A DNA stretch of 42,874 bases from Streptococcaceae bacterium (GTDB lineage: Bacteria; Bacillota; Bacilli; Lactobacillales; Streptococcaceae): positions 1-42,874 of the forward strand of contig JAIRUS010000031.1 in NCBI GenBank assembly GCA_031254295.1, in the 5' to 3' direction. How positions within the stretch are numbered: position 1 is the first letter of the stretch; the number at the start of each line of letters is the position of its first letter. Positions 19,464 through 33,086 of the stretch are shown here, one piece after another. Under the pieces are notes generated by a model. It was not told the origin of the DNA. It made no database searches and saw only the letters and a program-made list of their open reading frames with translations. The translations under genes and the position numbers were made by a program.

Positions 19464-19970
19464 TCAAATTTCTGAGTTTTTGTCAGAAAGCAAGTCCAAT
19501 TCCATCAAGTAAACAGGATTTGCCCGTTCCCCCAGTGACTTTGTCGCTTTAAGAACTTTATAGCCTTGCCTCTGCCAAAACCTAAGACCCGCAGGATTAT
19601 TTCTCAACACGCCCAGACGAAGCTTATCTCCACCTGACTCTATGACTTGTTGACAGATCTCCTGATGCGCTTGACTTCCCAGTCCTTGGTTTCTTACTTT
19701 TGGAAGAAACAAGAGAAGCCCCAGAAAATAAGTACCTTGAATCGGATAGTTCTCAGCTAGGTCGATAAGGCCTACAAGTTCTGTGCTTTCATAAATCCCC
19801 ATTGTCTGCTTGTCTTTGTATGTCTTGCCAGGTGGTAAAGTATCGAAGAAATCTCTGCTTGCTTCTTTGATATCTAGTTCTCCATTTTCGAGCCTGAGAT
19901 AATCTGTTGAAGACGCAAAAACTTCTTCTACTTCACGAAGTTGTGAGCGCTTAAGAACTTTTAACTCCAT
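19464..19970 (-). CDS. GNAT family N-acetyltransferase
   Basis: A 168-aa GNAT fold protein. The acetyl-CoA loop region is LLFLPKVRNQGLGSQAHQEI (R/Q-x-x-G-x-G/A) and is followed by LRLGVLRNNPAGLRFWQRQGY, typical of this superfamily. It overlaps the end of tmcAL by 10 nt, so it is translationally coupled to it. The acceptor substrate is unknown. Confidence 0.85.
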   Translation of the reverse strand: MELKVLKRSQLREVEEVFASSTDYLRLENGELDIKEASRDFFDTLPPGKTYKDKQTMGIYESTELVGLIDLAENYPIQGTYFLGLLLFLPKVRNQGLGSQAHQEICQQVIESGGDKLRLGVLRNNPAGLRFWQRQGYKVLKATKSLGERANPVYLMELDLLSDKNSEI

Positions 19971-21055
19971 ATAATCGGACGCCTTCTATAGCTTTGCTCT
20001 TTAATTTCAGGATTACCCAGACGATAGATTTCATCTGCACGCTGTGTCACTGCATCCCATGGATGTTTTCCTATTTTCGTTGCGACAGGAATTTCACGTT
20101 TACGCGCCTGAGCTAGCACTTTTTGTCCTTTCTCAGAAAAGCCCAAGACATGGATACTTTCTGGCATCTTAAAATCTCGCGGAATATCGAGCAGTATGTA
20201 TGTCAAGAGCCGACGAATATGACCTTTTGTATAACGTTTTGTATAGACTTGCTCAATCAACTCTGACAAATTTGATGAGCTTTTGATATAAGTTTTGATG
20301 CGCTGTGACAGTTCTTCATTGACCTGATAAATATGCGTCAGCGTCGTAGAAGCAGTAATTTTATAGCGCAAAAACTCCCAGAAATCTGGCCAACCTGTTT
20401 GGGCTGCAACTTCTAAAAGCGCCCAACTTTCGCTTGGTATAAAATCTCTCGCCTGGCTGAAATTCTCACGAATCGCCGTCGCACTGGCAACTTGACCTGC
20501 CAGCTTGGTGTCATTGTAGCCTGTCTCGCGTTTTATCGTTCGCAGTTGAATATTTGTTCCCATCACCGCTTTCGCATAGGCCAATCCTAAGATGTGATTT
20601 GGTGTGCCACCATCAAATCGGACGCCCGCAAAATGTGCCCAAGCCTTCTCTGCCTTTAACGGATAAGCCATTAGCTCAGGAAGCTCAGCCATATAAGCCT
20701 TCATTTCATCCGCATTTTCAGCATAAATCTCAGAAATCCGCTGATAGTCCAGCTCTGACTCGCTCCCGAATAAAATCTCATCTACAGCGAGTTGATTCAA
20801 AATACGAACCGCCCCCTCGGCAAAAAAATCAGCCCCTTGCAAGGCACTCATGACTGGTAACTCAACCACAAGATCTGCCCCTGCGCGCAAGGCCATTTCC
20901 GTCCGCGTCCATTTATCCACAAATGCTGGCTCGCCTCGCTGCATCCAATTTCCTGACATCACGATTACCTTCGTTCCTTCAGCCTGATCCAGTAAGAGTT
21001 GATGCCCATTGTGAAAGGGGTTGAACTCTGCGATGATACCTGTAATTTTATCCAT
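19961..21055 (-). CDS. tmcAL: tRNA(Met) cytidine acetate ligase
   Basis: A 364-aa member of the YlbM/TmcAL family, which activates acetate with ATP to make N4-acetylcytidine at the wobble position of elongator tRNA-Met. The nucleotidyl-transferase motif is intact at the N terminus: GIIAEFNPFHNGH (residues 6-18, with HxGH at 15-18). Other conserved parts are VVELP and GSESE. It has no Shine-Dalgarno; a TATAAT box ends 6 nt before the ATG, so the mRNA is probably leaderless. It is followed by the overlapping GNAT gene. Confidence 0.93.
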   Translation of the reverse strand: MDKITGIIAEFNPFHNGHQLLLDQAEGTKVIVMSGNWMQRGEPAFVDKWTRTEMALRAGADLVVELPVMSALQGADFFAEGAVRILNQLAVDEILFGSESELDYQRISEIYAENADEMKAYMAELPELMAYPLKAEKAWAHFAGVRFDGGTPNHILGLAYAKAVMGTNIQLRTIKRETGYNDTKLAGQVASATAIRENFSQARDFIPSESWALLEVAAQTGWPDFWEFLRYKITASTTLTHIYQVNEELSQRIKTYIKSSSNLSELIEQVYTKRYTKGHIRRLLTYILLDIPRDFKMPESIHVLGFSEKGQKVLAQARKREIPVATKIGKHPWDAVTQRADEIYRLGNPEIKEQSYRRRPIIWS

Positions 21056-21070
21056 GAAAAGATTATAACG
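21056..21070 (-). promoter_or_regulatory. -10 box abutting tmcAL start
   Basis: TATAAT on the minus strand (21067-21062) lies exactly 6 nt before the ATG at 21055, the same distance as at polA and dut. The -35 is weak. Confidence 0.55.
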
Positions 21071-21120
21071 TATGGCAAGCTTTTTCGCTAGTTTGGCTGA
21101 GACGAAATAAATCGGACTTT

Positions 21121-21131
21121 TTGTTATAATA
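21121..21131 (+). promoter_or_regulatory. Extended -10 promoter of the SDR gene
   Basis: TTGTTATAAT on the plus strand contains TGT-TATAAT at about 21122-21130. It would give a leader of about 120 nt before the SDR start. The -35 box is poor. Confidence 0.55.
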
Positions 21132-21257
21132 AATCCTTATTAATTTTTAGACTACTTGTACTCGTGAAATACAGGCGACTTGAAAAATAAACATTTGTAT
21201 GAATATCATTCAAAGCCGAATGCTTGCACGAAGGCAATTAAAAGGAGAAATCTAAAT

Positions 21258-21989
21258 ATGGAAAAACCACTCATTGTTATTACTGGCGCAAGCTCAGGAT
21301 TTGGTGCTGAGATTGCCAAACTTTTCAACAAGGAAAACTATCCGATGTTACTACTTGGACGACGCGTCGAAAAAATCAAAGCGCTCCCCCTTAACTTTGA
21401 CAAAGTCCTTGTCGAAGCCGTTGATGTGACGGATAAAGAGCAATTTGAAACTGCCGTCCGAAAAGCTGAAGCCCTCTACGGTAAAACTGACCTCCTCGTT
21501 AATAACGCAGGTGTGATGCTACTTGGCAATGTTTTGATACAAGATCCAGCCGAGTGGAAACAAATGATGGATACCAACGTCCTCGGCGTGCTTAACGGCA
21601 TGCAAATTGTCCTTCCAGATATGGTTGCCCGTGAAACAGGCACTGTCATCAACATGTCTTCAATCGCTGGAAGAAAAACATTTGGCAATCACGCAGCTTA
21701 TGTCGCAACTAAGTTTGGCGTACACGGCCTAAGCGAAACAGTTCGCGAAGAAGTCTCAGCTAAAAACGTGCGTATTTCCCTCGTCGCACCCGGTGCAGCT
21801 GAAACTGAGCTCTTAACTCATGTCACAGATCAAAACGCACTCGATAGCTACAACGCATGGAAACAGACCATGGGAGGCAAATCAATGGCTCCTGAAGCTG
21901 TCGCCGAAACCGTTAAATTCATCTATGACATGCCACAATCTGTCAACATCCGTGAAATCGACATTGCGGCGACAAATCAGAACGCCTGA
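21258..21989 (+). CDS. Short-chain dehydrogenase/reductase
   Basis: A 243-aa classical SDR. The cofactor motif TGASSGFG is at residues 9-16, NNAG follows in the fourth strand, the catalytic Ser is in NMSSIAGR and the YxxxK motif in HAAYVATKFG. It resembles NADP-dependent YdfG-type enzymes acting on small hydroxy acids or aldehydes; the true substrate is unknown. Start chosen at 21258 because AAAGGAGAAA lies just upstream. An in-frame upstream start adds 26 residues unlike any SDR. Confidence 0.9.
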   Translation: MEKPLIVITGASSGFGAEIAKLFNKENYPMLLLGRRVEKIKALPLNFDKVLVEAVDVTDKEQFETAVRKAEALYGKTDLLVNNAGVMLLGNVLIQDPAEWKQMMDTNVLGVLNGMQIVLPDMVARETGTVINMSSIAGRKTFGNHAAYVATKFGVHGLSETVREEVSAKNVRISLVAPGAAETELLTHVTDQNALDSYNAWKQTMGGKSMAPEAVAETVKFIYDMPQSVNIREIDIAATNQNA

Positions 21990-22000
21990 TCAAACAAAAT

Positions 22001-22029
22001 TTGAAAAATCATTGAAAATTTGTTAATAT
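22001..22029 (+). promoter_or_regulatory. Antisense-RNA promoter of the relic cassette
   Basis: TTGAAA (22001-22006), 17 bp, TAATAT (22024-22029), with extended TGT. It is nearly identical to the promoter at 22351-22379. It reads into the leftover toxin leader. Confidence 0.75.
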
Positions 22030-22065
22030 AAACTTATCACCTTTCCGAGAAGCGTCATTTACCAT
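22009..22065 (-). pseudogene. Truncated type I toxin gene (relic cassette)
   Basis: The 5' leader, start and first 11 codons (MVNDASRKGDK) match the intact toxin at 22461-22589. After GATAAG the reading frame runs straight into the antisense promoter and stops after 18 codons. The hydrophobic part is absent. The junction fits a deletion between GATAAG (after codon 8) and GATAAAC (before the antisense promoter), leaving an antisense promoter facing a toxin leader. Confidence 0.7.
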
Positions 22066-22194
22066 ATGAATAGCTTTCTCATATTGTCTAGAGTGTGGGG
22101 AGTCATATTCCCTTCTCGCTAAGAACGGCTATTCTTAGCGAACTGGACATAACATAAAAAGAAGAATTTATCTCAGATAATTCTTCTTTTTTTA
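22036..22194 (+). ncRNA. Predicted antisense RNA of the relic cassette
   Basis: From the promoter at 22001-22029 to the AAGAAGAATT/AATTCTTCTT terminator with a T-run (22159-22194) gives an RNA of about 160 nt. It is complementary to the relic leader and, with mismatches, to the leader of the intact toxin at 22461-22589. It might act on that toxin in trans. Confidence 0.55.
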
Positions 22195-22350
22195 TCCTAA
22201 ATATAAAATTTGTTATCCATTTGCTGTAAGCCACTAAGAGTGGCAACGCAAATCGCACGTAAAATATTTGAATTTGTTTCAACTAACTTCGTCTTTTCTT
22301 GATAATTAAATTTCTCCAGATTTATTACTTCTCCTCACTAAGATTAAAAC
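22195..22350. other. Spacer between relic and intact toxin cassettes
   Basis: AT-rich. Contains one small hairpin GCCAC-TAAGA-GTGGC (near 22231-22245). No gene or promoter is evident. Confidence 0.4.
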
Positions 22351-22379
22351 TTGAAAATCTAACTCAAATTTGTTAATAT
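22351..22379 (+). promoter_or_regulatory. Antisense-RNA promoter of toxin cassette 1
   Basis: TTGAAA (22351-22356), 17 bp, TAATAT (22374-22379) with extended TGT. It lies downstream of toxin 1 and faces it, as in convergent type I toxin-antitoxin loci. Confidence 0.78.
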
Positions 22380-22402
22380 AAGTTTATCAGAGAAAGGCAC
22401 AT

Positions 22403-22429
22403 AAAAAAGACGAGCCTGCCAGCTCGTCT
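22403..22429 (-). terminator. Terminator of toxin 1 mRNA
   Basis: AGACGAGC/GCTCGTCT form an 8-bp stem followed by six U on the minus strand. The same stem ends the toxin 2 mRNA at 23056-23082. Confidence 0.85.
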
Positions 22430-22460
22430 GTGTCAAAAATTCTCGGTGATAACGTGGGGC

Positions 22461-22589
22461 TTAATCTTTACAATTAAGCTTTTTGATTTCTACTATAAGA
22501 CTAAGTACAATCAGAACAATCTGAAGCGACTCAACTACCAAAAGTAGAAATACCATCTTATCACCTTTCCGAGAAGTGCCTTTTACCAT
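22461..22589 (-). CDS. Type I toxin-like hydrophobic peptide 1
   Basis: A 42-aa peptide: a basic start MVKGTSRKGDK, one long hydrophobic helix (residues 12-34) and a charged end (EIKKLNCKD). The start at 22589 has a strong GGGGAGG site 7 nt upstream; an internal ATG at codon 12, also preceded by GGAAAGG, would give a 31-aa peptide. The size, single helix, charged tail and convergent antisense promoter match Hol-Tox/TxpA-like type I toxins that damage the membrane when not repressed. The 5' leader holds a perfect 10-bp hairpin (CGCTAAGAAT/ATTCTTAGCG, near 22643-22667). A toxic effect is inferred. Confidence 0.72.
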   Translation of the reverse strand: MVKGTSRKGDKMVFLLLVVESLQIVLIVLSLIVEIKKLNCKD

Positions 22590-22893
22590 ATGAAGACCTC
22601 CCCTCATATTGTCTAGAATGTGTGAGGGTTGTATCCCCCTCTCGCTAAGAATGACTATTCTTAGCGAATTGGACATAACATAAAAAGAAGAATTTGTTTT
22701 AGATAATTCTTCTTTTTTATATTTAAATGCAATTTTCTTATAATTTTATACTTTCATTCAAAAAAACTAAAATTTTTGAAACAATTTTATATTTTTTACG
22801 TATATATAAGTAAGAGGAAATTTCCTCTCTGTCAAAATTGCTCAGGTGATTTGACTCCACACATTCTAGAAAGTGAAAAGGGAGGATAAACAC

Positions 22894-22923
22894 ATGGCAA
22901 AGGCCAAATCTCAAGAAAGGTGA
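22894..22923 (+). CDS. Nine-codon upstream ORF of toxin 2
   Basis: ATG with a strong GGGAGG site encodes MAKAKSQER and stops with TGA, which overlaps the next ATG (TGATG). It aligns with the first codons of toxin 1, where the frame is open; a one-base length difference closes it here. It may be a coupling leader peptide or the scar of a frameshift. Confidence 0.5.
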   Translation: MAKAKSQER

Positions 22924-23024
22924 TGCAGGTGACTTTAGCGCTCCTGATGATTGATTCAATTCGACTTATCGTTGATATAGTCTCAATCATCGTGAAACTA
23001 AAAAAACTTAATCCTAAAGATTAA
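22923..23024 (+). CDS. Type I toxin-like hydrophobic peptide 2
   Basis: A 33-aa peptide, almost all one hydrophobic helix, ending KLKKLNPKD, homologous to toxin 1 (shared pattern LLxxxSxxLIVxIVSIIVxxKKLNxKD-like). Translation may start at the ATG overlapping the upstream ORF stop or at GTG 22929, which aligns with the internal ATG of toxin 1 and has the same distance from GAAAGG. An antisense promoter faces it at 23105-23133. It is oriented opposite to toxin 1, so the two mRNAs diverge from 22720-22860. Confidence 0.68.
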   Translation: MQVTLALLMIDSIRLIVDIVSIIVKLKKLNPKD

Positions 23025-23055
23025 GTTTACCCAAATCACCGAGATATTTGACAGG

Positions 23056-23082
23056 AGACGAGCTGGCATGCTCGTCTTTTTT
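23056..23082 (+). terminator. Terminator of toxin 2 mRNA
   Basis: AGACGAGC/GCTCGTCT 8-bp stem then six T, the same stem as toxin 1. Confidence 0.85.
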
Positions 23083-23104
23083 CCTTTATCTCTTTGATGG
23101 GTAT

Positions 23105-23133
23105 AGTATAACATTTTGTTTTGAGGATTTCAA
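23105..23133 (-). promoter_or_regulatory. Antisense-RNA promoter of toxin cassette 2
   Basis: On the minus strand TTGAAA (23133-23128), 17 bp, TATACT (23110-23105) with TGT before the -10. It faces toxin 2 from downstream, mirroring cassette 1. Confidence 0.75.
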
Positions 23134-23367
23134 ATTTCTGAAGATGGCGAGTGAAATCTAGATTTCCTCAGATTTATCCGTTTTGGATTTTTCCACGGTA
23201 ATTTTCCCTTGGCTTTGTAGTTTCTCTCTTTTTCTGTTAATATTATTTTCTCTTCTCAACGCATGAACGTTTTACCTGACAGAGCCATTCAGCGTGAACT
23301 CAGAAGTCAATTTTCAAAATCTAGAACAATCAAACAGCTTCTCTTCATCACAAAAAATCTGAAATTA
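23134..23367. other. AT-rich region without recognised gene
   Basis: A 40-codon plus-strand reading frame starts at ATG near 23263 but has no ribosome site, so it is not called. Nothing else is recognised. Confidence 0.3.
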
Positions 23368-23448
23368 TTGACATCTCAACCTTAAAATGATATATTTTAG
23401 TCAACAAGATTTGCACGGAGCAGGATGCTCCTGCCGCAAGTCTTTTTT
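23368..23448 (+). promoter_or_regulatory. Consensus promoter followed at once by a terminator
   Basis: TTGACA (23368-23373), 17 bp, TATATT (23391-23396) is a near-perfect promoter. Ten bases after the expected start, AAGATTTGC/GCAAGTCTT with an inner GGAGCA/TGCTCC forms a strong hairpin ending in T6 (23407-23448). The product would be about 45 nt. It may be a tiny RNA, or a surviving promoter-attenuator whose gene was lost when the adjoining island was joined. Confidence 0.55.
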
Positions 23449-23449
23449 G

Positions 23450-23572
23450 TTACGACTGCTCAATTTGCTTCGTTTGCCAGACGTACTCACGCTGATAAAA
23501 GTCAACATCGTATTTGTCTGCAAAAAGTGTTTTGAGTGGAAATACCTTGCTATCTACTGTTTTCTGTGTCAT
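23450..23572 (-). pseudogene. N-terminal fragment of a DUF262 (GmrS-like) gene
   Basis: A 40-codon frame starting with an ATGA overlap on the FRG gene. It contains IPLK-type and YDVDFYQREYVWQTKQIEQ, the conserved N-terminal motif of DUF262 proteins (GmrSD-type modification-dependent restriction, where this domain is a nucleotide-dependent nuclease). Intact proteins are several hundred residues long; this one stops right after the motif, beside the hairpin at 23407-23444. It is a truncated gene at the edge of the defence island. Confidence 0.7.
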
Positions 23573-24780
23573 AAATTTTCTTCCTTTATTTTTTGCCTAG
23601 CATTAATCTGGTCTCGAAAATTATCTCTTTCATATCTTTGACGCTCCATCACATACTCCGCTGTATTATCTAAATCTGAGAATATAAATTCACGGTTGAT
23701 ACCAATATAATCCAGCTCTCTCAAAATTTGTGACTTAGCATTTGAGCTAATAATGAATTTCTTTTCAAATGGAATTTTTTGGGTATACGGTTCCATAAGC
23801 GGATATACACTCAACTGATAAATAAAAGCAGCCTGTTGATTTTTGAGTCTATCAAATATAATATTTGGTTTATACACTAATGTTGGAAAAGGTGGAAAAT
23901 CTATCTGCTTTGAAGCAATATCAAATAAGTCAAAAACAAGTATTAAACGAATAAGATTATTCTTTACTATTTTTGAGGGATTTCTGTCTACATTTGGTGA
24001 AATCTTTATCGTTTTGACTTGTTCCAAAGAAAATAGTTGGCCATCAAAATCAGCAATAGTTTCGGCTGTTAATTCTTTGGAAATATACTCTTCAATTAAG
24101 GCATTAATCTCATCAAATTTAAAATTGCTCTGAAATTTCTTTAGACTAAAAACATCTACCTCTTTTTTTGTACCAACGCTAGCTAAAACTCTCTTCCATC
24201 CTTGTAAAATAAATTTATTAAAGTCTTTTTTATCTGGAAATTTCGACATACTGCTAAATCCTGACATACTGTAAGTAATTAGTGAGATAATAGTGTCTTG
24301 GATTATTCTTTCCGTCCCTCCATAGTTGGATTGTAAAATATTGGAAGTAAGGGAATCCATTAATTTCCTGATATCAAGTCTAGTATTTACTCCCACATAT
24401 TCTTCCAGGATTCCAGGAAAATCCAAAGTCTTCCGTTTATCCAGACAATAAATAATCCCTGTTTCTTCTTCATCTGAAACTGCAAAATAAAGTGATACTA
24501 AAGGATTTTCAGAAATGTCCAAAAGCTCCGTTGCCAAACCATGATGTTGAGATAACGCTGTAAAATTTTCTTTTTCAATCTCAGAAAGATGAATACCTAT
24601 TTTCGAAAAATAATCTGATTTCAATTCATCTAGCTTGTAATAAAATCCTTTTTTATTTTTTCTAAATCCCTTTGCTACATTTGCTGTTTCCCTATTATCT
24701 CTTAATAATAATCTCCAGTTTTCCTTAATTTATCTATCTCTTCAATGAATTGAGATAAACTATTTATTGCTATTGTCATA
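23569..24780 (-). pseudogene. FRG-domain protein gene, frameshifted near its start
   Basis: The long frame (to 23569) contains the FRG-domain core LSQHHGLATELLDISENPLVSLYFA and then about 300 residues without recognised motifs. A proper start (ATG 24780, ribosome site AAGGAG) lies in another frame and encodes about 25 residues ending LRKTGDYY before a stop. Shifting by -1 at about 24705 restores one protein of about 403 aa. The region does not look like a classic programmed slip site, so it is probably a mutated gene, although translation from an alternative start near 24610 (TTG) is possible. FRG domains occur in many phage-defence loci; their activity is not established. Confidence 0.68.
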
Positions 24781-24798
24781 GCATTCTCCTTAGTTTTT

Positions 24799-26403
24799 TT
24801 ATTTAACATTAGGGTTCCAACTAAATTCATAATTCCCAATTCTTTGCTTTTTTAGATTTCCTCGTAAAGCTATATCTTTTATCGGAAAATGTTTATCTTT
24901 ATCATATTGTACAAGCCCAATAAAATTTTCGTTTGTTTCAAATTGTTCTTTATGTTTACCACGCCTATACTTCTTTTTGTATATAGATAAAAAGACAATA
25001 TCTGCTTCCATTTTCCCATACTTAACTTTGTCTTTGGGATTTCCAAAATTTTCTGTAGTTACTAACTTTGAAACAGCCTCAATAACCATTTTTTCTAATT
25101 GCTTCTTTTTAAGAGACTCCTCGATATATATATCCCCAATCATTCTTTTTTTATCTTCTAAACTAGAATCATATATATCCGTAATTGTATAATCATTGCC
25201 CTTAATATCTGAAAATCCCTTAAATGAATCTAAAGTTTCATTTCTCACTTCCGTATTTGGCTCAAACATCATACAACCACCATCAGCAATGATCTTACTT
25301 ACTGCCTGCTCAAGACTTATTTTTTCTGAAATTAACTCTTTAATAATATCTACATTTATTAATAGAAATGAATTCATTGTCCTCGAAGCATAAAAGCTAA
25401 CATAGATAGACCTAACAAAATCATTATCAAATAATTTATATCCATAAATCGCTACATACAGCGCAAAGCCAAGTCTTTCATTCACAGATAAATTAGGGTG
25501 AGTAAATTCAAAATTGAGTTGCTGATCATCTTCATTGCCTAATATATTAATCGTCTCAATAGATTCACAACTATTTTCAAGCGTCGAAAAAGCTAAACGA
25601 ATAACATCTTTATCCAAATTTCGCATTCCAACAGAATTAATTTTCTTTTCAAATTCAGCTATATGCCTAGCGCATAAGCTTAGCCAGCCATAGAGCATAG
25701 CGGTAAGACAATCATAAAATTTTTGAATTTCATCTTTTAACTGAAAATAACTAAACTCCGTTGTAACAAATTCTGTTACTTTATTAACAGTTTCAGCATA
25801 AGTGAGCATTAACTTATCTTGCCCATAAACTACTTTTCCATGAGCCATCGCATTCCTAAGACTATGATTTACTATTTCAATCAGTTTAGCATAGCTAATT
25901 GTACGTTTTCCCCCAGATAAATAATTAATCTTCTGAGTTAAAGAAACATTATTTTGCTCTGTTTGCTCAGTCTTTTCTTGAAAACAGATAAATAAATCTA
26001 AAATATCACTATATGAATAATTTAATAAATCACTGAAAATAGGAACTGTAAAGGCTTGAGCTTTTATATCTTCCCTTTCCTGAAATTTTTCTAATAAATC
26101 TAGCCTTGAACTAATTGACTCCAGTGTTTTTATTGTAGAAACTAGTTTAGAGAATTTTGAAACAAAGAGTTCTGCTATTTCACCACTTGACAAATACTGC
26201 TCATAATTTTCAAATATTCCCCTTATTTCATTTTGGTAGTCAACATCAAAATTTTTCATTTGATTATCTACATAAAATTTATTCAAAAGCGGATAAAGCA
26301 ATCTAGGGATTTCTGCTTGGAACAGCTTCTCTATCTTTTCTGTCCCTGCTGCTTCCTTATTATTTTCCCACCATACGATAAAATCAACCAATTCCTTATT
26401 CAT
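24799..26403 (-). CDS. 534-aa protein with HEPN-like motif in defence operon
   Basis: A 534-aa, largely helical, soluble protein. The segment IEIVNHSLRNAMAHGKVVYG has an R-x4-H motif (R183-H188) within LRNAxAHG, the typical catalytic-site pattern of HEPN ribonucleases and HEPN-like proteins. No other domain is recognised. The C terminus is basic with a beta-rich look. It overlaps the 147-aa membrane gene by 4 nt and precedes the FRG gene by 18 nt, so it is part of one operon. An RNase effector role in abortive infection is a reasonable hypothesis, not shown. Confidence 0.72.
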   Translation of the reverse strand: MNKELVDFIVWWENNKEAAGTEKIEKLFQAEIPRLLYPLLNKFYVDNQMKNFDVDYQNEIRGIFENYEQYLSSGEIAELFVSKFSKLVSTIKTLESISSRLDLLEKFQEREDIKAQAFTVPIFSDLLNYSYSDILDLFICFQEKTEQTEQNNVSLTQKINYLSGGKRTISYAKLIEIVNHSLRNAMAHGKVVYGQDKLMLTYAETVNKVTEFVTTEFSYFQLKDEIQKFYDCLTAMLYGWLSLCARHIAEFEKKINSVGMRNLDKDVIRLAFSTLENSCESIETINILGNEDDQQLNFEFTHPNLSVNERLGFALYVAIYGYKLFDNDFVRSIYVSFYASRTMNSFLLINVDIIKELISEKISLEQAVSKIIADGGCMMFEPNTEVRNETLDSFKGFSDIKGNDYTITDIYDSSLEDKKRMIGDIYIEESLKKKQLEKMVIEAVSKLVTTENFGNPKDKVKYGKMEADIVFLSIYKKKYRRGKHKEQFETNENFIGLVQYDKDKHFPIKDIALRGNLKKQRIGNYEFSWNPNVK

Positions 26404-26843
26404 TTTTTTACTTTTTCTTTCTTCTTATACGTTTGAGTAAACCCAAATACAATCAATGCTAATAAAAATATAATAAATCCACAGAAAACTAACAGCAATA
26501 CAGACGAAAAAATTCCTGTAGTGTGATTCACCGACCATATTAAACCATACGAAATTACTCCACCAATAATTGCACTTAAAAATACTGCACCCAAACTAAT
26601 TGGATCAATTTCTTTTTCAAGATTTGAAATCTCTTTTTCCATGAGATTTTCTATCCTCTTCCTAAGCTCAGGGTTTTCAACTAACGTTGAATAAATTTCT
26701 GTGTATTTGGATAATGTTCCTAATCGGGATTTATTATTTTTTATCACTCCACTTAAAAATTTAATTAAGCCTGCTAGAAATGTAAATATTGATACTCCTA
26801 ATGCTGAAATTAGCGGCATATTTTTTGATAACCAATCTATCAT
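26400..26843 (-). CDS. 147-aa membrane protein of the defence operon
   Basis: Three probable membrane segments (about 8-30, 84-105 and 112-135) surround a cytoplasmic, charged helical middle (ENPELRKRIENLMEKEISNLEKE). The C-terminal tail is lysine-rich. It resembles in outline the two-helix effector proteins of defence systems, but no family was recognised. It starts 9 nt after the 286-aa gene and overlaps the HEPN-motif gene. Confidence 0.68.
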   Translation of the reverse strand: MIDWLSKNMPLISALGVSIFTFLAGLIKFLSGVIKNNKSRLGTLSKYTEIYSTLVENPELRKRIENLMEKEISNLEKEIDPISLGAVFLSAIIGGVISYGLIWSVNHTTGIFSSVLLLVFCGFIIFLLALIVFGFTQTYKKKEKVKK

Positions 26844-26852
26844 TATTTTCTC

Positions 26853-27713
26853 TCACAATACTTTATTATCTTGATTCTTTAGCGCCCGTTCTCTAATTGC
26901 TTCATCATCAATTTTAAAATTCCACATTTCATTTATTTCTGCTTTCATTTCAGAGGAATTCAAATTGCTAAATTTGTCATTTTCAAATCGTTCAAGAAAT
27001 ATATCATTTGCAGCCATATATTCCTGACACATATCGTGTAATTCGATAGTACTAGTTAAAACAAGTTGAGCCAAAGTGACAATGGTCCGATTAATATTTT
27101 TCCGTTGATTCATTTCCGAAATTGGAGAGTTAGGCTGCGCAAATAGAATGATAGAATCCAAACTAAAATAATAGCTGTTAAATCTTTCAATCTTTTTATT
27201 GTAAAAATGACCTGCATTTTTAATTCCAACAATTCCTGAGATGAGTTCTTGAGATACCCCATCGATCCCTTGATAAATGCCTTCCAGATGAATTTGATTT
27301 AACATTTCAAAATTTGTGTGTACATCATTTAACTCACCTTGAGAATCTTTTTGAAAATACGGACTTCGAATCAAGTTTTCCAATAGTTTCTTGTTCATAT
27401 CTAGTTGAATTCTCATAGTTACAATTACACTATAGTGCTGATTTCTTTGTTTTCTCTGCTCACGAAATATGCTTAAATATTTCTCTTTATCATATTTTTC
27501 AACTTCTATTGCTACATCTTCTTTTCGGCGCCTATCTAGCTCATTAAAATCTTGCTGCCTATATTTATCTGTATTGTGCTTACTCCATAATGCAATTCCT
27601 ATTGCAATTATTATTGCAATGAACGTTAAAATGAACATTGCAATATCGAATGGACGAACTTCAGATATAGATTTTATGGCTTTAATTATTTCTTCAAATT
27701 GTTTTTCGTTCAT
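26853..27713 (-). CDS. 286-aa membrane-anchored protein of the defence operon
   Basis: A single N-terminal membrane helix (about 24-43) is followed by a long charged helical region (about 45-130, rich in Lys, Glu, Arg, Gln) and a helical C-terminal domain. The start overlaps the stop of the restriction-modification gene by 4 nt with its own GAGGAG site, so the two are linked in translation. No family recognised. A sensor or scaffold at the membrane is possible. Confidence 0.68.
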   Translation of the reverse strand: MNEKQFEEIIKAIKSISEVRPFDIAMFILTFIAIIIAIGIALWSKHNTDKYRQQDFNELDRRRKEDVAIEVEKYDKEKYLSIFREQRKQRNQHYSVIVTMRIQLDMNKKLLENLIRSPYFQKDSQGELNDVHTNFEMLNQIHLEGIYQGIDGVSQELISGIVGIKNAGHFYNKKIERFNSYYFSLDSIILFAQPNSPISEMNQRKNINRTIVTLAQLVLTSTIELHDMCQEYMAANDIFLERFENDKFSNLNSSEMKAEINEMWNFKIDDEAIRERALKNQDNKVL

Positions 27714-30442
27714 TTCTCCTCCTCATACAATCTCATCAACTCAGCCACACGCTCTTCTTTGGTCGGGTTTTTCAGGTTGTAGAGGCTGTCCACGAGTTTA
27801 TCGTTTTCTTGGTGGGCGCGGCGGAGGTCGGTGGGCATGAGGAGTGGGTCGTACATGTCGGCGAGGGAGTTGCCTTGGGCGCTGTAGTTTTCGCGAATTT
27901 TGAGGATTTTATCAGCGCTGACAGTAAGTTTTTCTTTGTCTGTGTCGGCCAAGTCTGGGACGACAAAGGTATTATAGACGAGGGTGTTCGAGTAGCGGTA
28001 ACGTCCTTCAAGTTTTCCGCCAACGGTGTCTAGCCAGGCCATGTGGAGTTTGGATTGGAGGAGGGCGAAGAGGTCAAGGCTTGCAGGAACTTGTAAATGT
28101 GGCGCCGCAACTATCGTTGGGTATTCTAATAAAGCCATCGGCACATAATTTCGTGCTTCTGATGAAACCTGCGGTATCATGATGAATTGACCGTATAACA
28201 CATGATCTTGCTGATAAAGCGTTGGAGTATCCGAATCCGCCAGAGTAGCTTTGTCCTTACTCGCTAAACGATTTTCGCGCACTGCTTGAACACGTTCACG
28301 AATAACTGAATTTTGTAAAATTTTCAACGGAGCATCTTTGAGATAAAGAGCATAGCGTTTTTTGTTATTTAGCATATCTTGTGCCGATAAATAAACATGG
28401 AAAAGCTCTGCCAGCTCAGGATATTTTTTAATTGTCTCTTCAAATTCTTCAGGTGTAAACAAGAAATTCTGTCCATCTGTCAATTTAGAACCCCAGCCCA
28501 TTTCGGGCAATCCAGATATTTGTTTGTTTGCAGATTTGACAAAAACAGTCGGAGCAGGTAATAAGTTTTGGTTGATATTCTGCACCTCTACTTTGACAGC
28601 TTCTCCCTTTATATCTTCATACTCAAAAATATTCTTAGTAGTTTTATCGAATAGTGCAAAGCCAATGATAACAACAAAAACAGCCGCCCCGTTATTGTCC
28701 CATTTGAATGTCTGGTGCGCAAAGTTAATTTTCACATTAAGTTTCTCAAACAAAGGTTGCCAAATGTCTGTTGCTTGTGTTCCTTGTACCACAGAATTTG
28801 TGGAAACAAGCGTAGCCTGTAAGTTCGGGAACTTTTGCATGAGTTCCGCAGCTTTGAAATACCAACCTGAAACAAAATCTAATGCTTTAGCTTTAGTATA
28901 AGTCTTAGTTACGGCGACCAAACTTGCTTTTTGCTCTGATGAAGAAACACGATTCCCGATAAACGGCGGATTCCCCAGCACAAAGTCAATCTTGTCAGCG
29001 CTGACAAATTCCTCTGTGTCAAATACTTCCAACCAGTCCACTGCCAGTGCGTCGGCTTTGGCGATGTTGCCGCCTGTGTGCAGGGGCAAGCGGACGTAGT
29101 AGCTGCCAAAGAGGCTGCTGGCTTCGAGGTTCATGATGTGGTCCATCAGCCAGAGGCCGAGGCGCGCGATGCTGGTGGCGTAGGCGTTGATTTCAATGCC
29201 GTAAAACTGGCTGACTTCGACTTTGAGGAGGTCGGAGATTTCGAGCAGGGAGATTTGCCCTTGGACGAGGCTGTCGATGACGTCGTGCTCGAGCCGTCGG
29301 AGTTCGCGGTAAGCCACGATGAGGAAGTTACCTGAGCCGCAGGCTGGATCTAGGAATTTCAGGCTGGCGAGTTTTCTGTGAAAGTCTTGGAGGGCTTCTT
29401 CGCGCTTGGTCTTTCTTGTCTTAATTTGCTCAAACTCTGCGCGGAGATCGTCCATGAACAGGCTGTCCGTCACTTTTAGGATATTTTTCTCACTCGTATA
29501 GTGGGCGCCCAGATTGTGGCGTTTTTCTTTATCCATTGCCCCTTCGAACATGGAGCCAAAAATGACTGGGCTAATGTTGCGCCAGTTCAGAGTCGATATT
29601 TCAAGGAGATTGTCGCGGATTTCTTGGGTCAGCGCAAGGCCTGATAGCTGCGGAAGTTTGAACAGGCCACCATTGATATAGGGAAATTCAGCCAGTAAGC
29701 CAGTTTGAAAGCGCGCGGTCTCTGGTGTATCAAGGACTTGGAAGAGGACTGACAGCTGGTTGACGAGGTCTGAGCCGTCATCAAGAGTCTGGCTCTGGAT
29801 ATATTCCTGAAAGAGGCCATTTCTGAAAATCTGGGTGTCGTCCGCAAAGAGACAGAAAACCAATCGTGTCATGAGGAGATCGGCGTAGTTACGCGGATAG
29901 TTGGCCGAGAGGAGCTGACTGTGAATCGTCTCGAGCAGCATCGCCGCCTTGGCATTGACAGGGTCGATGTTATCTGTTGTAAGACGGGCTTTTTTCTGCC
30001 CAAGGAGGAAGTCAAAATCGTCCAGATGGGCGAGTAGGTCAACCGTCGCAAAGTCTATCGTCTCCTGACTTTCTAGCTTGATCAGACGAATCGTCTCAAA
30101 GTTACAGAGCATGAGATAGTTTGGCTTGTCTCGGTCGTCAAGGTGCTGATAATAGCGCTCCGCCTGACTGAGCGGGCTCGTCGTATGCCCTGGCTCGAGC
30201 TTGTCAAAGTCGATACCACGCCCTTTCATCTCACAAAGCAAAACGCCCGGCCAGAGATAGTCAATCCGTCTGGGCGAGCCATTGACATTGACCTGATACT
30301 CAAAGCCGACACGCGCCTGCGCAGGGTTGAAAATGTCAATGAAATCACGCATGAACTGCTGGGCTTCCTGTGTCTCTTTGGCATCGTCTTTGTGGTTTTG
30401 GATAAAGGCCAATGCCTTGTTTTTCATGACTTCTGTTATCAT
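27710..30442 (-). CDS. Type IIL restriction-modification enzyme, MmeI-like
   Basis: A 910-aa single-chain enzyme, close to MmeI in length. The N-terminal PD-(D/E)xK nuclease site is D61-x9-E71-M-K73 (spacing as in MmeI). A helical spacer follows, then an N6-adenine methyltransferase domain with motif I DPACGSGNF (near 363) and motif IV GNPPF (near 488). The C-terminal part should hold the target recognition domain. The enzyme would methylate one strand of an asymmetric site and cut about two helical turns away. Base composition is mosaic: the ends are GC-rich, while codons about 500-784 (28090-28940) are AT-rich, suggesting exchange of the recognition part. A promoter lies at 30478-30506. Confidence 0.9.
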   Translation of the reverse strand: MITEVMKNKALAFIQNHKDDAKETQEAQQFMRDFIDIFNPAQARVGFEYQVNVNGSPRRIDYLWPGVLLCEMKGRGIDFDKLEPGHTTSPLSQAERYYQHLDDRDKPNYLMLCNFETIRLIKLESQETIDFATVDLLAHLDDFDFLLGQKKARLTTDNIDPVNAKAAMLLETIHSQLLSANYPRNYADLLMTRLVFCLFADDTQIFRNGLFQEYIQSQTLDDGSDLVNQLSVLFQVLDTPETARFQTGLLAEFPYINGGLFKLPQLSGLALTQEIRDNLLEISTLNWRNISPVIFGSMFEGAMDKEKRHNLGAHYTSEKNILKVTDSLFMDDLRAEFEQIKTRKTKREEALQDFHRKLASLKFLDPACGSGNFLIVAYRELRRLEHDVIDSLVQGQISLLEISDLLKVEVSQFYGIEINAYATSIARLGLWLMDHIMNLEASSLFGSYYVRLPLHTGGNIAKADALAVDWLEVFDTEEFVSADKIDFVLGNPPFIGNRVSSSEQKASLVAVTKTYTKAKALDFVSGWYFKAAELMQKFPNLQATLVSTNSVVQGTQATDIWQPLFEKLNVKINFAHQTFKWDNNGAAVFVVIIGFALFDKTTKNIFEYEDIKGEAVKVEVQNINQNLLPAPTVFVKSANKQISGLPEMGWGSKLTDGQNFLFTPEEFEETIKKYPELAELFHVYLSAQDMLNNKKRYALYLKDAPLKILQNSVIRERVQAVRENRLASKDKATLADSDTPTLYQQDHVLYGQFIMIPQVSSEARNYVPMALLEYPTIVAAPHLQVPASLDLFALLQSKLHMAWLDTVGGKLEGRYRYSNTLVYNTFVVPDLADTDKEKLTVSADKILKIRENYSAQGNSLADMYDPLLMPTDLRRAHQENDKLVDSLYNLKNPTKEERVAELMRLYEEEK

Positions 30443-30477
30443 ACAAGCTGTCTTTCTAAAGCGTTTTCTCAGCTTCT

Positions 30478-30506
30478 ATCTTATCATTTTTTAGACGACT
30501 TGACCA
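30478..30506 (-). promoter_or_regulatory. Promoter of the defence operon
   Basis: On the minus strand TGGTCA (30506-30501), 17 bp, TAAGAT (30483-30478) with TGA before the -10. It is the only good candidate between the secreted-protein terminator and the MmeI-like gene. Confidence 0.5.
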
Positions 30507-30533
30507 GTTTTTCCCTCTCCCAGAAATTAAAAA

Positions 30534-30560
30534 ATCGAAGTATTTCTACTTCGATATCTA
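30534..30560 (-). terminator. Terminator after the secreted lipase-like gene
   Basis: ATCGAAGTA/TACTTCGAT stem with a short loop and a U-run on the minus strand. It separates the secreted protein from the defence operon. Confidence 0.85.
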
Positions 30561-30599
30561 GGTATCTCTATGCGCAAGCGTTGAAAACTCTCACACGAT

Positions 30600-32273
30600 T
30601 TACCACCATTTTAGCCATGAAGTTGCGGCTGCAACTGTATTACTCACAGCACTTGTTACATTTCCAACTGCAGCCGCCACATTTGTGATGGTATTTGCCG
30701 TGGCTGTTGCAATTGTCGTGATGGCGTTACCTGTCGCAGCAAGGGCTGACAAAGCTGTGTCAACCGTTGATTTGGCCGCTGTGGTTACAAGCGTGGCCGT
30801 CGCGTTTGTCACATTGCTCACTGTTGTCGTTACAGCATTTTCAATGCTATTTGCAAGCCCGTGATTGACTTGAAGAGGGAGAAGCGGATATGGGCTTGTT
30901 GTGTCAAGATTTAGCGCCCCTGCAACCAGATTTCCTGTCGCAAGACCAACTGCATCTCCCGCGGCTGCAATACCATTTTCAACTTGACTCACAGCGCCAC
31001 CAGTTACTGTATCTGCTGCATTAAGCACATTTCCAAGAAGTGGAAGCGCCGAAGTTATTGTCGCCGCGATAGGACTGATGATAAAGTCAGGGCTCGTCAT
31101 AATTGCATTTAACATAGGGCCAAGATCTGCTGAGACAGGATTCGTCACGTTTCCTGCTGCATCAAAGGTATAACCGAATGCATGGCTAAAAATTGGTCCT
31201 GCAAAATTCATCGCAAAATAAGAAGCCGTGCCAAGACCATTTCCTCCGTAAGCGCCGAGCAGTGTATCCCAAGAGTTGCGATAGTCCACATAGGCAGATG
31301 GGTTCGCCTTGACATAGGCAATGTCCTCAGCCGATAGAATATTTTCTGGACTCGGTCCTTCAAACGCTACTATAGCTTGTTTTTCCTCTGCTCCAATTGC
31401 CATGGCAAGGTAGCCACCGAGTGAAAAACCAGTGATGGCAAACTTTGAACTTGGATAAGCCGCAATGATTTCATCCGCAAATTGCTTGGCTGTCACAGCT
31501 TGACTTGGCAATGTCACACGCCCATCAAGTGACGTATAAGTGTTTGAACCAGCTATTACAGTCTCAACATCTGTCAACCAATCTTGCGGCTCAGAAAAGA
31601 ATGTATAAGGACTTGTCGGCGCAAAGGCAATGATAATCTGGCTTGTATCTGTAGCTTCGTTAATGACAGGTGAAACTGCCATCGCTTGCATTCCATTTGC
31701 AGGATAGCCAGATGTTTGATCTGCAGAATCGACCGCACGGAGAATCTGATAGGCTTGTCCTGTTTTATCGGCATTTTCATAAAAAATATCCCCTGTCTTA
31801 TAGGTTGTACTTCCACTTGTATTCTTTGTGAAGTCTTGTCCTACACCCATGACAAGATTTGCAATTGTATAAAACTGCTGAGTGGTCGTATTATTTACAA
31901 CCGTCATATCTGGCGCAGCTAAGCTAGAGCTAGAAATAGAAGTCTGTGATGCTAATGAGCTTACACTCACTAAAGACTCTGTATTCACTGATGACGCCAC
32001 TGACGATGCAGTGATTGAGTTACTTGTCGCATTGGCTGTACCCGATGTTGCGACTGAGTTTGTACTACTGCTTTGTGTGACAGAGATCGCTACACTCGGA
32101 TCAGCTGCAGCTAAACTCGCCACAACAGCACTTGGACTTACAACAAGTGTATCCGCCTGTGCCTGTGTAACAAGCGCTCCGCCCCCTGATAGCGTCGCCA
32201 CTACTGTTACCGCATAAAGCCATTGCTTTCCTTTTTTCCAAACTCGGAAATTTTGAGTATTATTTTCTGCCAT
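30600..32273 (-). CDS. KxYKxGKxW-signal secreted lipase-like protein
   Basis: A 557-aa surface or secreted protein. The N terminus has the KxYKxGKxW-type export motif (FRVWKKGKQW, residues 9-18) plus a hydrophobic core, a signal linked in lactobacilli and streptococci to large Ser-rich proteins. A Ser/Thr/Ala-rich stalk follows (about 45-120). The next domain has an alpha/beta-hydrolase nucleophile elbow GFSLGG (near 280), with FEGPSPENI further on, as in lipase-like proteins. The Ala/Thr/Val-rich C-terminal 150 residues end in SWLKWW, with no LPxTG anchor. The substrate is unknown. Confidence 0.78.
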   Translation of the reverse strand: MAENNTQNFRVWKKGKQWLYAVTVVATLSGGGALVTQAQADTLVVSPSAVVASLAAADPSVAISVTQSSSTNSVATSGTANATSNSITASSVASSVNTESLVSVSSLASQTSISSSSLAAPDMTVVNNTTTQQFYTIANLVMGVGQDFTKNTSGSTTYKTGDIFYENADKTGQAYQILRAVDSADQTSGYPANGMQAMAVSPVINEATDTSQIIIAFAPTSPYTFFSEPQDWLTDVETVIAGSNTYTSLDGRVTLPSQAVTAKQFADEIIAAYPSSKFAITGFSLGGYLAMAIGAEEKQAIVAFEGPSPENILSAEDIAYVKANPSAYVDYRNSWDTLLGAYGGNGLGTASYFAMNFAGPIFSHAFGYTFDAAGNVTNPVSADLGPMLNAIMTSPDFIISPIAATITSALPLLGNVLNAADTVTGGAVSQVENGIAAAGDAVGLATGNLVAGALNLDTTSPYPLLPLQVNHGLANSIENAVTTTVSNVTNATATLVTTAAKSTVDTALSALAATGNAITTIATATANTITNVAAAVGNVTSAVSNTVAAATSWLKWW

Positions 32274-32348
32274 GAATATTCCCCTTTTCTATTTTTGGCT
32301 ATATATAAGAAAGACCCATTGTATAAAATAAATCTTTTTTACCTAAAA

Positions 32349-33086
32349 TTATTTTTTCGCAACGAAGAACCATCGCAGGCTTTCGTCCGTTGGTGCTTTG
32401 TCTGCAAAGTCTGCAAAAAACTGACAGTCTGTAAAGCCCACTTCTGTCAGCGCTGACAGGTACTGCTCTATCTCATAGGTTCGTTCTTCGTGCACTTCAT
32501 CTTTTCGGATGAATTTTCCGTCTTTATCTTTGATAAAAAAGGTCAGCTCATGTGTCACCGAGTGCGCGACATCACCAGCATAGACGTCCCACATGAAGGC
32601 AAAATCCTCGGCATTGTCATGATAGGCAAAACCTGGAAAGGCGCTGTCAGTCTGGTAAGTCGAGTGAACGTCAAAGAGAAAACTACCACCTGAGCGCAAG
32701 CTCTTGTAAACACCTTTGAAAGTCTTTGTCAGGTCTGACAAGTCAGGTAGGTAACAAAGCGAATCACTGTAACAGGTCACGGCATCAAAGCTTTCTTGAT
32801 AGTCAAGCTCTCGCATATCAGCTTGCGCAAAGCTAGCTTCTGGCAGGCGTTTTTTTGCAATTTCAAGCATCTCGGCTGACAAGTCCACACCTGTTATCGC
32901 ATAACCTGCCGCTGCAAATTTTTGACTGAGAATCCCTGTCCCACACGCCAGTTCGAGGATTTCATGCGTCCTTACAGAAGGTGAAGACGGGAAATGACGC
33001 CCAGAAAAATCCAACCACTTCTCGTAAAGTGATTGGTCCATAATCTCATCATAAACTTGTGAGAAAAGTGTGTAGTTTTCTTCCAT
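32349..33086 (-). CDS. SAM-dependent methyltransferase, YqeM-like
   Basis: A 245-aa class I methyltransferase. Motif I is LELACGTGILSQKFA (about 45-60), the acidic residue of motif II is in GVDLSAEML, and later motifs include DAVTCYSDSLCYL. Its position as last gene of the YhbY-NadD-YqeK-RsfS operon identifies it as the YqeM-type gene. The substrate is not known. It starts 25 bp after rsfS. Confidence 0.88.
   Translation of the reverse strand: MEENYTLFSQVYDEIMDQSLYEKWLDFSGRHFPSSPSVRTHEILELACGTGILSQKFAAAGYAITGVDLSAEMLEIAKKRLPEASFAQADMRELDYQESFDAVTCYSDSLCYLPDLSDLTKTFKGVYKSLRSGGSFLFDVHSTYQTDSAFPGFAYHDNAEDFAFMWDVYAGDVAHSVTHELTFFIKDKDGKFIRKDEVHEERTYEIEQYLSALTEVGFTDCQFFADFADKAPTDESLRWFFVAKK

Follow-up and report, generated by a model that had tools for sequence, protein, structure and literature searches.

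An unnamed family of HEPN-like proteins, with a member encoded behind an MmeI-type restriction gene in a Streptococcaceae bacterium

Introduction

MmeI and other type IIL enzymes, HepT-type HEPN toxins, PrrC-type guards of restriction-modification (R-M), SEC-C motif proteins, FRG-domain proteins and GmrSD/DUF262 proteins are the described systems closest to a row of minus-strand genes in the window, the whole 42,874-nucleotide stretch of Streptococcaceae DNA analysed here (contig JAIRUS010000031.1). The restriction enzyme of this row shares with MmeI its five domains in order as well as the nuclease and methylase motifs, with no differing feature among those compared. A 534-aa protein encoded further along resembles HepT-type toxins (PDB 8xdj and 7ae8) in its helical bundle (VIA-align Z 9.7 each), its R-x4-H motif and the polar residue that follows the arginine, but differs in a beta-hairpin after the motif, in the extra N- and C-terminal parts of its 534-aa chain, and in lacking both an MNT antitoxin partner and any Pfam or NCBIfam match. 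A HEPN-MNT toxin-antitoxin pair was considered and rejected: no nucleotidyltransferase family was detected among the operon proteins scanned, and the neighbours are a 147-aa membrane protein and an FRG gene. In PrrC-type guards, too, a HEPN protein has its gene next to restriction genes, but the 534-aa protein has no ATPase match, its partner is MmeI-type rather than type Ic, and its family shows no conserved association with MmeI in five neighbourhoods. A SEC-C tail occurs in 10 of 25 family members, all in the more distant part of alignment A2, and is absent from the window copy. FRG-domain proteins (PADLOC PDC-S15) and GmrSD/DUF262 are matched by sequence, although both window pieces are broken remnants. 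Judged by motif and modelled fold, the 534-aa protein fits the known HEPN superfamily, and the real find of the locus is its family in Bacillota, unnamed in the libraries searched (no Pfam, NCBIfam or PADLOC model).

Results

The gene row lies in a variable interval (21056..32348) between a methyltransferase gene (32349-33086) and a gene at 19961-21055 that we take to be tmcAL-like; these two are directly adjacent in all four other genomes of the genus compared (L073-L076). The initial annotation described six leftward genes with tight gaps or overlaps. Coordinates and overlaps bear out this layout, but only four of the genes are intact (MmeI, 286, 147 and 534, the last three named by protein length) and the last two (FRG and DUF262) are remnants. 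ATGA overlaps of 4 nt join the MmeI/286, 147/534 and FRG/DUF262 pairs, spacers of 9 nt and 19 nt separate 286 from 147 and 534 from FRG, respectively, and no minus-strand terminator-like site was found inside the row. A DNA search with the long row matched nothing beyond short stretches of MmeI on two Paracoccus plasmids.

The first gene (27710..30442, minus strand) is intact and encodes a 910-aa protein in which all five Pfam MmeI domains (nuclease, helical spacer, N6-MTase, TRD and C-terminal) score above cut-off and in order. PADLOC assigns residues 6-908 to its type IIG model PDLC03598 (E=9.4e-287), and the motifs D61-x9-E-M-K, DPACGSG and NPPF are all present. The five domains, together with the nuclease and methylase motifs, confirm the earlier identification as a type IIL (MmeI-like) enzyme. 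Several hundred relatives were found, and the neighbourhoods of five were examined. The G+C content of this gene is 0.476, versus 0.293-0.312 in the downstream genes (0.308 in the 286 gene and 0.293 in the 147 gene), and its GC3 is 0.543, versus 0.22-0.25 in these AT-rich genes; the break in composition coincides with the stop of the restriction gene.

Next follows the gene of a 286-aa protein (26853..27713, minus strand) with one N-terminal transmembrane (TM) helix at residues 24-42; AGGAGGAG, a strong ribosome-binding site, stands directly 5' of its ATG, within the end of the MmeI gene. The gene behind it (26400..26843, minus strand) encodes a 147-aa protein with three TM helices, and hydropathy agrees with the number of segments originally given for each protein. 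Both are near-orphans. For the 286-aa protein, Pfam and NCBIfam gave nothing above cut-off and PADLOC nothing at all; it weakly matches PHROG 10669, a family of unknown function (E=7.5e-5, residues 26-101), and its own genome was the sole one matched in sets of 246 genomes from the order and 398 from the class. For the 147-aa protein, Pfam matches are sub-threshold throughout (best DUF1673, E=0.0012), and its own genome alone was matched among 378 class genomes at E<=1e-5. Weak matches to it (1.5e-4 to 5.8e-4) in three other of the 246 order genomes were set aside as likely reflecting membrane composition, one of them reading through seven stops. No convincing relative of either protein was found in plasmids, in order and class genomes, or in viral contigs, where exact short patterns from one sequence reach close relatives only; nor was one of the 286-aa protein found in phages.

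With phmmer, no match to the 286- or 147-aa protein (E<=0.1 or E<=10) turned up in the 291 ORFs that lie up to six genes away from 29 relatives of the 534-aa protein, and there was likewise no match at E<=1 around the five MmeI relatives. Because the two proteins have almost no detectable relatives, such co-occurrence would hardly be detectable even if real. Given their absence from both sets of neighbourhoods, the sequence evidence lends no support to the original proposal of a single membrane-linked abortive system, made up of the middle four genes and coupled to R-M.

The 534-aa protein (24799..26403, minus strand) comprises a HEPN domain at about residues 72-260 with the motif R183-N184-x3-H188, a middle region, and a C-terminal domain at about 401-534. 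The LRNAMAHG string noted originally is present, running from R183 to H188 in its core, and R183, N184 and H188 are invariant in 6/6 rows of alignment A1 and 25/25 rows of A2 (which is without L063, L069, L005, L006 and L009). RN-x3-H was found by pattern in 28 of 29 relative ORFs, and in the 29th (L063), where the gene is split, it lies on the N-terminal piece; the motif thus stands at 30 of 30 places examined, including this frame-split copy and excluding the partial matches L017-L019. In shuffles of the protein (n=2000), RN-x3-H arose by chance in 1.45% and the looser R-x4-H in 19%, so the motif is weak in a single sequence and it is its presence in every examined relative that counts. The asparagine after the arginine agrees with the HEPN consensus as given in PMC3710099.

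Structure models (AF2) reached a pLDDT of 80.9 for the whole protein and 89.4 for the HEPN domain alone. With the domain alone, the ten best VIA-align rows scored Z 8.2-9.7, and seven of these are titled HEPN (8xdj, 7ae8, 8yuf, 8xeh, 7ae2, 7ae6 and 4nqf), several being entries of the same protein; the rows 3c18, 1ylm (YutE) and 7bxo are presumably HEPN superfamily members as well. Sacsin HEPN (7.3), TM0613 (7.1) and Csm6' (7.1) follow, and with the full model the two top-ranked structures are again HEPN. These values are modest for a helical bundle, for which Z below about 13 may be chance, and designed bundles score 8.0 and 7.8 against the same domain. Foldseek returned no match at E<=0.001 with either the whole model or the domain, a fold search in viral models nothing at E<=0.001, and a sequence search of solved structures with A1 only ribosomal L14 and other noise (E 0.011 or worse). 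The modelled HEPN-like fold found by VIA-align, combined with the invariant RN-x3-H motif, nevertheless supports the original HEPN assignment; most likely, the protein cleaves RNA independently of metal. Its C-terminal domain shows some likeness, which we take to be DHHA1-like, to DUF487 and to portions of family II pyrophosphatases, NrnA and GdpP, but the scores (Z 5.0-7.5) are too low to carry a conclusion.

A single-sequence scan of genome contigs with the 534-aa protein yielded no relative, and one with a profile found 26 loci, all titled Bacillota except for one 'Mollicutes' record; a scan of viral contigs found no relative. The family is patchy, occurring besides the source genome in 3 of 117 relatives and in 4 of 294 order genomes (one match weak, one fragmentary); Priestia and Leuconostoc plasmids also carry copies. 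Near the copies in L047, L053, L055 and L057 lie DUF961 and other transfer genes, presumably Tn916-like. Most relatives have no shared partner: 17 of 29 loci lack a same-strand ORF of at least 80 aa within 60 nt (three of them cut by a contig end), and of the 12 that have one, L063 and L069 owe it to the splitting of the family gene itself, L067 and L070 to an overlapping ORF. Among the matches listed (25 of about 150 families, a list without background rate), neighbours include type II MTases, REases, MADS, AriA, FRG and a 4TM effector-like protein. Family pairs with dS below 1 show purifying selection (dN/dS 0.10-0.24), the window copy lying outside these pairs; near-duplicates were retained (L050/L051, 99.4% aa identity; L061/L072, 98.7%). 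A literature search found no paper joining the SEC-C motif with HEPN and none with SEC-C, HEPN and defense, and a search for HEPN with MmeI found nothing related. What emerges is a distinct, scattered family of predicted HEPN proteins, with or without a SEC-C tail, whose residues and relatives are now available for testing as RNases and in phage defence.

The FRG gene (23569..24779, minus strand) is frame-broken in the assembled sequence: its first frame (ATG at 24779; 24779-24702) stops after 25 codons, and the rest (24729-23569) continues in another. It is 34% identical to the relative L077 over 375 columns, but the FRG motif of that relative (FYFRGES) is missing, and the break falls at the expected motif site. 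Its earlier identification as FRG holds for the remainder, which matches Pfam FRG at profile positions 30-91 of 94 (E=5.6e-12), though not as an intact ORF. The last piece (23450..23572, minus strand) encodes 40 aa before a stop, a stub of which the DUF262 identity is upheld by a Pfam GmrSD_N match that falls short of the curated cut-off (E=0.00076, positions 2-30 of 199) and by tblastn matches to plasmid genes of 1.7-2.4 kb annotated as DUF262. DGQQR, the nucleotide-binding motif of this domain according to PMC10952713, is absent from the 40 aa. Being broken, neither gene can be a working part in the window. Among 144 neighbour proteins of the 534 family (A3), two matched Pfam FRG, one encoded by the next gene after the family member (L057, 198 nt) and the other by the second gene (L065); with the window, these loci suggest that FRG may be a recurrent companion. 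The refuting observation named originally, a lack of co-occurrence elsewhere, held for the 286- and 147-aa proteins across all neighbourhoods and samples searched, but FRG is seen in 2 of 29 loci. The A3 set holds 144 of 146 listed neighbour genes (a split-gene piece of L069 and an ORF overlapping the L067 target were dropped), retains one fragment of the split L063 gene, and is confined to genes of at least 90 aa that are complete within their locus.

Discussion

The gene row is real, yet one single system cannot be demonstrated from it: given the break in composition and the broken downstream genes, translational coupling is no proof of one. Genes from different origins, partly decayed and probably anti-phage, make up this patchwork locus, whose modules would have been acquired separately. 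In other words, an operon may look tidy, its stops overlapping starts, and still be a patchwork. The AT-rich genes have one common composition, an observation that also fits their joint arrival as a unit and counts against the patchwork reading.

We consider it somewhat better than an even bet that the 534-aa protein is a HEPN RNase effector that works alone and was captured behind a restriction gene, in a composite cargo locus with a housekeeping gene on either side in this Streptococcaceae genome. The first module, a single-chain MmeI-type restriction-methyltransferase, would mark host DNA and cut unmarked DNA. AT-rich genes of other origin may have joined behind its stop codon in a fusion that left the ATGA overlap, bringing two membrane proteins, the 534-aa protein, and what are now the FRG and DUF262 remnants. 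We infer that the 534-aa RNase would act as a second-line effector, abortive or translation-blocking, with its C-terminal domain probably sensing a ligand or partner and holding the HEPN part inactive until infection.

The tight spacing, the ATGA overlaps, the uninterrupted run without terminator-like sites and the uniform composition of the AT-rich genes would also suit one integrated system, PrrC-like in design, in which R-M is the first line, the 286- and 147-aa proteins a membrane sensor or anchor, and the HEPN RNase the effector; HEPN genes often accompany R-M, as PMC3710099 describes. The composition break after MmeI, the missing 286 and 147 matches around relatives of 534 and MmeI, the 17 of 29 relatives with no close same-strand gene, and the broken FRG and DUF262 genes make such a system unlikely. 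We rate as likewise unlikely an undescribed membrane-tethered HEPN system formed by the 286-147-534 trio, put together recently within this lineage and with its translation coupled to that of MmeI, whose RNase would be released upon restriction failure or phage membrane perturbation. Should the downstream genes instead all be non-working and ride behind a functional restriction gene, the frame-broken FRG and truncated DUF262 genes would be expected, but the 286-, 147- and 534-aa ORFs are intact, as are the 534-aa motif and the strong ribosome-binding site of the 286 gene, and we regard general decay as decidedly improbable.

Copies of the family among transfer genes (L047, L055 and L057) and on the Priestia and Leuconostoc plasmids could mean that the protein serves conjugative elements and plasmids in RNA processing or maintenance and is not a defence effector; with patchy occurrence, changing contexts and defence-type neighbours against it, this seems highly unlikely. 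Least probable, and very much so, is a HEPN-FRG pair in which the family RNase and the FRG protein cooperate with the membrane proteins as bystanders. In the window, L057 and L065 the family gene does have an FRG gene downstream, but none was seen in the other 27 loci, and the three FRG proteins differ strongly in length and sequence; with its FRG gene broken, the pair would be dead or half-dead in the window.

As to the standalone effector, the ATGA coupling of the 534 gene to the 147 gene is unusual for a solitary protein, and the close same-strand ORFs in 12 of 29 loci and the FRG gene after the family member in two of them likewise count against that reading.

Gene row and its flanks

The initial annotation described a minus-strand row of six genes, and the first four are indeed intact, tightly joined ORFs: an MmeI-like restriction gene (910 aa, 30442-27710), the genes for a 286-aa (27713-26853) and a 147-aa (26843-26400) protein, and that for a 534-aa protein (26403-24799). 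The last two on that strand do not stand as described: the FRG gene (24779-23569) is broken, and the DUF262 gene (23572-23450) is a truncated 40-aa stub. Genes meet in ATGA overlaps or across gaps of 9 or 19 nt, with no terminator-like site on the minus strand within the row and no excess of promoter-like sites over the two strands together (19, versus 22.0 in shuffles, sd 4.7). The opening frame of the FRG gene stops after 25 codons and the remainder lies in another frame; an alignment of 375 columns with L077, an FRG protein from Lactiplantibacillus (34% identity), shows that the FRG motif is absent at the break. Four plasmid genes related to the DUF262 piece, which ends at 40 aa, measure 1.7-2.4 kb. 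Unless these breaks are assembly errors, FRG and DUF262 cannot act here as described.

The locus is probably composite. The MmeI gene has a G+C of 0.476 (GC3 0.543) and the four genes after it 0.293-0.312 (GC3 0.22-0.25), the shift sitting within ~100 nt of the MmeI gene end; two flanking housekeeping genes have 0.455 and the remaining window, with intergenic DNA, 0.385-0.395. The genes downstream of MmeI are of a different stock from the MmeI gene. Some 11.3 kb including the whole row is variable, because its flanking genes, a methyltransferase gene (32349-33086) and one that we take to be tmcAL-like (19961-21055), are adjacent in all four other genus genomes compared; it may have come in by one step or by several. 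The MmeI-like gene is an ordinary part of the locus: its product has all five Pfam MmeI domains above cut-off and in order, is covered nearly whole by the PADLOC type IIG model, and carries nuclease (D61-x9-E-M-K), SAM (DPACGSG) and NPPF motifs, with relatives in 467 plasmid records, 187 of which cover at least 80% of the query.

A hairpin repeat 5' of the MmeI gene (30524-30556), scored terminator-like on the minus strand, recurs exactly over 33 nt and 31 nt at two sites on contig 24 of genome G001 and over 26 nt in G004. The variable interval also encodes a 557-aa protein (30600-32273) with a KxYKxGKxW signal peptide and alpha/beta-hydrolase matches, all sub-threshold.

A probable HEPN family and its neighbours

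The valuable component of this composite locus is the family of the 534-aa protein, unnamed in the libraries searched and very probably HEPN, as the initial annotation had it. That assignment, which we accept, rests on predicted fold and an invariant motif, despite Foldseek, which returned no match at E<=0.001 for residues 72-260. Predicted alone (pLDDT 89.4), this domain gave ten best VIA-align rows at Z 8.2-9.7, seven titled HEPN (several being entries of one protein) and three, 3c18, 1ylm and 7bxo, which we presume to be HEPN; two designed bundles (Z 8.0 and 7.8) come next, then sacsin HEPN (7.3), TM0613 (7.1) and Csm6' (7.1). R183, N184, H188 and G189 are invariant in 25/25 rows of the larger family alignment; a Leuconostoc copy has N in place of G189.

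Of the 117 other genomes in the relatives set, 3 encode relatives (31-35% identity); two plasmids carry others at 26-27%, and a profile search of the genome collection gave 26 loci, all Bacillota by record title except one 'Mollicutes'. No Pfam, NCBIfam or PADLOC model scored above cut-off against the window protein; PADLOC matches in relatives (PDC-S12, E2; each in at most 10/25 members) probably reflect the SEC-C motif added in the more distant part of the alignment (10/25 members). In pairs with dS <1, dN/dS is 0.10-0.24, these pairs comprising relatives only, as the window copy is without a near relative.

A membrane-linked abortive system coupled to restriction-modification, as first proposed, is improbable. 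The 286- and 147-aa proteins have one and three predicted transmembrane helices. Comparison lends the proposal no support: at 29 family loci, some short, down to one neighbour, the 291 ORFs lying up to six genes from the 534-aa relative included no match to either (E<=0.1 or E<=10). Convincing relatives of either were found in none of the sets searched, the 286-aa protein weakly matching a phage family of unknown function, and with so few relatives the missing co-occurrence is weak evidence. At 17 of the 29 loci (three cut by a contig end) no same-strand ORF of at least 80 aa lies within 60 nt. No link to the two membrane proteins is seen at the 29 loci, while FRG recurs at two of them: it is the next gene downstream of the 534-aa relative in L057 (198 nt) and the second in L065, after a weakly NACHT-like protein. 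Because the window shares this arrangement, a HEPN-FRG association is possible.

For the 144 proteins within three genes of a relative, the 25 families listed first, out of about 150, cover DUF961, resolvases, restriction endonucleases and methyltransferases of type II, MADS, AriA and Schlafen-type helicases; two of the proteins match FRG. The copies in L047, L053, L055 (Floricoccus penangensis) and L057 have DUF961 and further transfer genes nearby, at differing distances. A 274-aa neighbour in L047 (6335-7159, the same sequence as L007 11164-11988) carries IRNKVAHG and is possibly a second HEPN protein of the same element. A Priestia plasmid (L005, 4401-9311) carries its 534-aa relative in a row with a nucleotidyltransferase, a 4TM effector-like protein (E=4.4e-93 to PADLOC PDLC00719) and two other proteins, an arrangement that looks CBASS-like. 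Related RNA uracil-5-methyltransferase-like genes sit one or two genes upstream in L052 (5628-7043), L053 (6409-7785) and L062 (5923-7617), and we presume that they may mark a shared integration site.

Within the window, 22000-23100 holds related short repeats (22106-22192 / 22632-22718, 91%) and an inverted pair (22403-22450 / 23035-23082, 81%), accompanied by small hydrophobic ORFs, two of them without a Pfam match, which in our estimation resemble toxins of type I toxin-antitoxin loci. Similar stretches occur on other contigs of the same genome and in congeners.
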